Source: Deltaproteobacteria bacterium
GTDB taxonomy: Bacteria; Myxococcota; Myxococcia; Myxococcales; 40CM-4-68-19
Direction: 5' to 3'
DNA: 12,540 bases
Assembly (NCBI GenBank): GCA_005879095.1
Contig: VBLM01000428.1
Location: forward strand, 1-12,540
Position numbers and translations under genes: made by a program. This document shows positions 8,755-9,365 of the stretch, piece after piece. Below the pieces are notes generated by a model. It was not told where the DNA came from, made no database searches, and saw nothing but the letters and a program-made list of their open reading frames with translations. Numbering within the stretch: position 1 is the first letter of the stretch; each line of letters starts with the position of its first letter.

Positions 8755-9365
8755 TTAAGCTTCGACCACCAGACCTTCGTGCAACCGAAGACGCCGCGGC
8801 ATGCGCTCGGCGAGACGCGGGTTATGCGTGACGACGATCGCGGCGATTCCGAGGCGCTGATTCAGCTCGCTGAGAAGCGAGTGAATCCCTTCGCCGGTAG
8901 CCTCGTCGAGGTTGCCGGTCGGCTCGTCGGCGAGCAGCAGGCGCGGTGATCGAGGCGGTCGCCGAGCCCGACGATCTCCAGCATCTCGCGCGCCTGGGCC
9001 TCGGCCTTCTCGCGCGGCTGACGATGGATCAGGCCCGGCATCGCCGCGTTCTGCAGCGCAGTGAATTCGGGCAGGAGGTAATGGAACTGGAAGACGAAGC
9101 CGATGCTGTTGTTGCGGAAGCCGGCCAGGTGCTCCTCGCTCATCGAGAAGGCGTCCTGTCCCTCGAACAACACCGTCCCGGCGGTCGGCGGATCGAGCGT
9201 GCCGATCACGTGCAGGAACGTGCTCTTGCCCACGCCGCTCGGGCCGACGAGCGAGGCCATCTCGCCGGGCTCGAGGCTGAAGCTGGCGCCGCGCAGGACG
9301 TGGATCTCCTTCTCGCCCAGCCAGTAGGACTTGTGCACGCCGCGCGCTTCGACGAGAGGAGCCAT
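8755..9365 (-). pseudogene. lolD: LolD, lipoprotein-releasing ABC ATPase, with internal deletion and frameshift
   Basis: LolD powers LolC/E extraction of lipoproteins from the inner membrane. From ATG 9365, 141 residues are normal: Walker [10 protein letters not shown] (41-49), Q-loop [12 protein letters not shown] (Gln93) and [12 protein letters not shown] (130-141). The next expected stretch, with the ABC signature LSGGEQQR and the following helix, is absent. At about 8940-8943 the sequence resumes in another frame with [18 protein letters not shown] (Walker B), [15 protein letters not shown] (H-loop) and a TAA at 8755-8757. As read, translation shifts out of frame after Arg141 and stops near 8862. 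About 67 bases are inferred lost, using E. coli spacing. An AGAGGA site nine bases upstream favours ATG 9365 over ATG 9374, which overlaps the lolC stop. Without a signature motif the ATPase cannot work. Confidence 0.85.

Follow-up and report, generated by a model that had tools for sequence, protein, structure and literature searches.

The closest described systems to the locus examined here are the LolCDE and LolDF transporters, whose LolD subunit (TIGR02211) is a transporter ATPase that is thought to be essential. Mis-sized or collapsed scaffold gaps are a known kind of error in short-read draft assemblies. The window (the whole stretch of DNA that was analyzed, 12,540 nucleotides) corresponds to the entire contig C404. 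This contig belongs to the draft genome G000, which comprises 791 contigs and 3.78 Mb and is 61.9% complete. Its lolD gene resembles the described systems in that both of its pieces match TIGR02211 best and in that it follows what reads by eye as a LolC/LolF-type permease gene. A lolF-lolD order, with which this arrangement agrees, is described as typical in a minireview (PMC11784454). The window copy differs from the described LolD in that, as assembled, it is without 67 bases that hold the ABC signature and its frame is changed. The features of the locus are as follows, with the permease named by eye.

8755 to 8946, minus strand: lolD 3' piece in another frame, from Walker B (LLLADEP) to the stop; TIGR02211 positions 162-220
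8945 to 8946, no strand assigned: lolD join, where 67 bases (ABC signature region) that all nine aligned relatives have are absent
8946 to 9365, minus strand: lolD 5' piece, codons 1-140; TIGR02211 positions 1-139
9371 to 10582, minus strand: LolC/LolF-type permease gene, 3' piece (mechanical open reading frame 9371-10543)
10582 to 10583, no strand assigned: permease join, where 80 bases that all six aligned congeners have are absent; frame lost
10582 to 11314, minus strand: LolC/LolF-type permease gene, 5' piece

Two adjacent breaks in the Lol locus

On the minus strand from 9365 to 8755, lolD reads normally (MAPLVEARG...GLGDRLDH) as far as His140 at 8946, after which the frame changes. This 5' piece includes Walker A (GPSGVGKST). 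The Walker B region follows in the other frame, within the 3' piece, which ends in GLVVEA with a stop at 8755-8757. In hmmscan searches TIGR02211 (LolD; 221 positions) was the best match for both pieces, with scores of 154.7 bits (167-aa reference, 8865-9365) and 60.5 bits (3' piece). Both lie under the curated cut-off of 307.75, which does not discriminate here because the score of P0043, an intact relative, is no higher than 274.

The ABC signature LSGGEQQR is absent from the window's lolD, and its stretch is present in all nine aligned relatives (six congeners and three further members of the family). The initial annotation had claimed that the signature motif and the frame were lost through a deletion of about 67 bases, and had recommended an alignment with LolD from relatives. 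This alignment was run with MAFFT and bears out the claim in both size and place: 67 bases that encode the LSGGEQQR region are missing relative to every one of the nine, and the frame changes at the join. BLAST coordinates give the same 67 bases for eight of the nine relatives and 68 for G007. The further claim of a normal reading to Arg141 stands as far as His140, but Arg141 itself is doubtful. At this position the relatives mostly carry Lys (His-Lys, CACAAG, in eight of nine), with His-Arg (CACCGG) in G007, and P0001, described below, also has Lys. Judged from these sequences, Arg141 is most likely a product of the join.

The microhomology proposed in the same annotation, a shared CCGC, finds no support in the related sequences. 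With the Lys codon of eight relatives and P0001 standing in for the organism's own letters at the left edge, the join would share about one base; G007 alone has Arg there.

A second break, absent from the initial annotation, lies in the adjacent permease gene, which is FtsX-like as read by eye. Here 80 bases are lost at 10582, in what reads by eye as a membrane stretch. Neither 67 nor 80 is a multiple of three.

Three other sites in the window differ from relatives. An HNH-like endonuclease fragment (6841-7052) has a frame break at about 6957-6969, which may be one more such loss, the third in the window, or a sign of gene decay. No weight is placed on this break, since the only copy available for comparison, from G002, does not keep its frame either. 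Two looser-edged gaps, at about 2269 (against G002) and at 11291 (against G005), are not specific to the window, since other relatives differ there too: G002 and G001 at one of these sites, and G002 and G005 at the other.

P0001, encoded on a 1,054-base ENA contig, is the closest protein found to the window's lolD. It is 99% identical over 140 aligned residues, keeps LSGGEQQR and reads LSGGEQQRVALARALVLKPR. By eye, P0001 leaves the family sequence directly after LVLKPR, the right edge of the stretch lost in the window. Nine related proteins were read; LSGGEQQR is found in seven, P0006 stops at LSGGE and P0025 has LSGGAC. Among these nine, P0025 and P0086, read by eye, stop resembling the family within the signature motif or shortly past it. 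More broadly, five LolD-like proteins from public assemblies (P0001, P0002, P0003, P0025 and P0086) depart from the family or show an apparent frame shift in or after the motif. These are possibly chimeric or broken assemblies at a conserved stretch. Assemblies may break often at this signature stretch, which could account for contig ends here.

Similar losses elsewhere in the draft

Contigs of the draft were compared with related genomes, counting a gap as sharp when its edges agreed within four bases and listing clean own-side gaps of 25-250 bases. The comparison with stretches of G002 covered 25 contigs and 198,919 bases, chosen in many cases for holding ABC genes. Gene names other than LolD (permease, rpoD-like, DAHP-synthase-like, peptidase-like and HNH-like) were assigned by eye. 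In 126,054 aligned bases, 14 clean own-side gaps were found against G002, eight of them sharp and six looser-edged. These eight include the HNH-like site and leave out a loss on C14; the list of eight sizes below does the reverse.

Contig C116 has two breaks relative to G002, of 74 and 70 bases, and the 70-base break falls in another ABC ATPase and is also seen against G006. Three further losses were measured against G002 only. On C341 (L124), at about 10157, an rpoD-like gene has lost 82 bases and its frame, in what reads by eye as an acidic linker; on C87 a DAHP-synthase-like gene has lost 109 bases; and on C94 a 69-base loss runs across the GNSGSP motif of a peptidase-like gene. A sharp 76-base loss on C14 was measured against G005 only, the sole genome with an orthologous match, and lies in sequence that may or may not be coding. 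The eight sizes (67, 80, 74, 70, 82, 109, 69 and 76 bases) have a median of 75, and only one of the eight is a multiple of three. On C287 a permease-like gene has a 129-base gap with looser edges and nine bases shared at the join; it was left out of the argument. Separately, a stretch of 60-112 bases at 6842-6964 of C636 (L082) has counterparts of 83-98% identity on seven contigs of G002 and is possibly a dispersed repeat family of the genus.

At the eight joins inspected, the draft's sequence passes from the left flank of G002 straight into the other flank, and about 0-4 bases are common to both; at looser gaps this overlap reaches six bases on C94 and nine on C287. With G002 standing in for the draft's own missing letters, the nearly blunt joins argue against repeat collapse.

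As a control, pairs among G002, G001 and G005 were aligned, although neither the own-contig nor the control-pair sample is random. Counted on both sides, 131,817 aligned bases held three gaps. A single one of these is sharp, and it reflects 141 additional bases in G002. The eight sharp own-side losses exceed this single control gap (p 0.0008), as do the seven that remain without the HNH-like site (p 0.002) and the five that remain when the two Lol losses are also removed (p 0.016). Within the own-versus-G002 alignments, sharp gaps on the G002 side occupy four rows at three sites, and the difference of eight versus three is not significant (p 0.11). G002 may share the same assembly fault at a lower rate. 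One of these three sites is a sharp coding gap of 95 bases in a porin-like gene of G002, at about position 3311 of locus L110 (contig C302), and is perhaps an artefact of this type.

Runs of N were also measured, where the neighboring sequence could be aligned. Across 65 contigs taken from the draft there are eight partial N runs, and the four with a reference stretch are measurable: two well aligned, with deficits of 66 and 89 bases, and two weakly aligned, with deficits of 68 and about 2. The run at C94:3070-3174 holds 105 N against 171 bases in G002 and is short by 66 also against G001 and G005. The run at C412:3864-3885 holds 22 N against 111 bases in G002 and is short by 89. On C30 the deficit is 68 against G005, in a weak alignment. 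On C14 it is about 2 against a 70-76% match in G003, perhaps a paralogue, and does not fit. The N runs may stem from the assembler; some could instead mark masked stretches, but masking by itself does not shorten a run.

The idea of a gap deficit was framed after the C94 and C412 measurements, and fresh material, C14, supplied one more sharp loss and the one misfit N run. C14 was the only contig with long matches among 40 picked by number (C1-C41 without C36). Of these 40, 16 (below 3 kb) were wholly N, and the remaining contigs of this survey yielded 410 aligned bases with G002, 822 with G005 and 0 with G001.

Candidate origins of the missing bases

Taken from sequence comparison, the 67-base loss in lolD is very probably an assembly artefact of one kind or another, with no real feature behind it, because like losses recur in other genes of the draft. 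The initial annotation had called the event recent or artefactual, and this recurrence favors the artefactual side. A gap judged too short is the likely mechanism, stated with less assurance than the artefact itself. Contigs would have ended to the left and to the right of the signature motif; a step of scaffolding or gap closing would have judged the gap about 65-90 bases too short, in effect as about zero, and the contigs would then have been written end to end without N. If gaps were reckoned short by this amount, one that truly measured 67 or 80 bases would become zero and leave a blunt join. The same step would also have produced the 80-base permease loss and the similar losses elsewhere in the draft, and we infer that one step caused them all. 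Such a step would explain the size of the losses, their bluntness, their lack of frame constraint and their recurrence together. The likeness to known mis-sized or collapsed scaffold gaps lies in the near-blunt, N-free joins and in N runs shorter than the relatives' sequence, with the difference that the deficit of about 65-90 bases rests here on few gaps.

An artefact of another origin is conceivable, although doubtful: an ABC motif shared across the community could have tangled the assembly graph and sent it down a wrong path, and a strain mixture would act alike. Two of the eight sized losses are in ABC ATPases, and P0001, P0025 and P0086 leave the family sequence at or near the signature motif (nine proteins, by eye), as such a tangle might produce. 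Other losses, however, lie outside shared motifs, in the linker of the rpoD-like gene and the membrane stretch of the permease as read by eye, and, in the comparison with G002, no join has an overlap as long as a k-mer. A tangled graph may explain why contigs ended rather than why bases vanished, and to that extent it overlaps with the short-gap mechanism. A biological origin is highly improbable. It would require a real 67-base deletion in lolD and a separate 80-base deletion in the permease gene, with the Lol transporter decaying or being replaced. Both lolD flanks are open in their own frames, and a broken neighboring permease is what decay of one operon would be expected to give. Against such decay, like losses affect conserved genes on further contigs, the rpoD-like one among them, all nine relatives are intact at the lolD site, the nearest protein found, P0001, keeps the motif, bamA-, lpxA-, fabZ- and lpxD-like open reading frames on the same contig are open by eye, and two N runs are short by a similar amount. 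It is implausible that a single organism would carry frame-breaking losses in rpoD as well as in lolD and its permease gene.

Implications for LolD in this organism

The initial annotation had argued that a real loss would imply a second copy of LolD. The 58 TIGR02211 matches of the 62%-complete draft include no evident second LolD. Apart from the window's own gene, the highest score, 228 bits, belongs to an intact ATPase on C127 with LSGGQQQR, which by eye adjoins one adaptor-like and two permease-like open reading frames. It was dropped as a candidate second LolD; the neighborhood is more like that of a MacAB-type exporter. If the lolD loss is an artefact, a second copy is unnecessary, and the organism itself presumably has an intact lolD. 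That the broken lolD and permease are real and that lipoprotein export has been rerouted or replaced is, on the sequences compared, highly improbable.

Reading the lolD break as an assembly artefact removes a false claim, that of a transporter ATPase thought to be essential being without its catalytic motif. The draft seems to contain phantom losses, with eight sharp ones in 126 kb of aligned, mostly chosen sequence. Phantom losses of this kind would fake pseudogenes and may depress the draft's completeness estimate.
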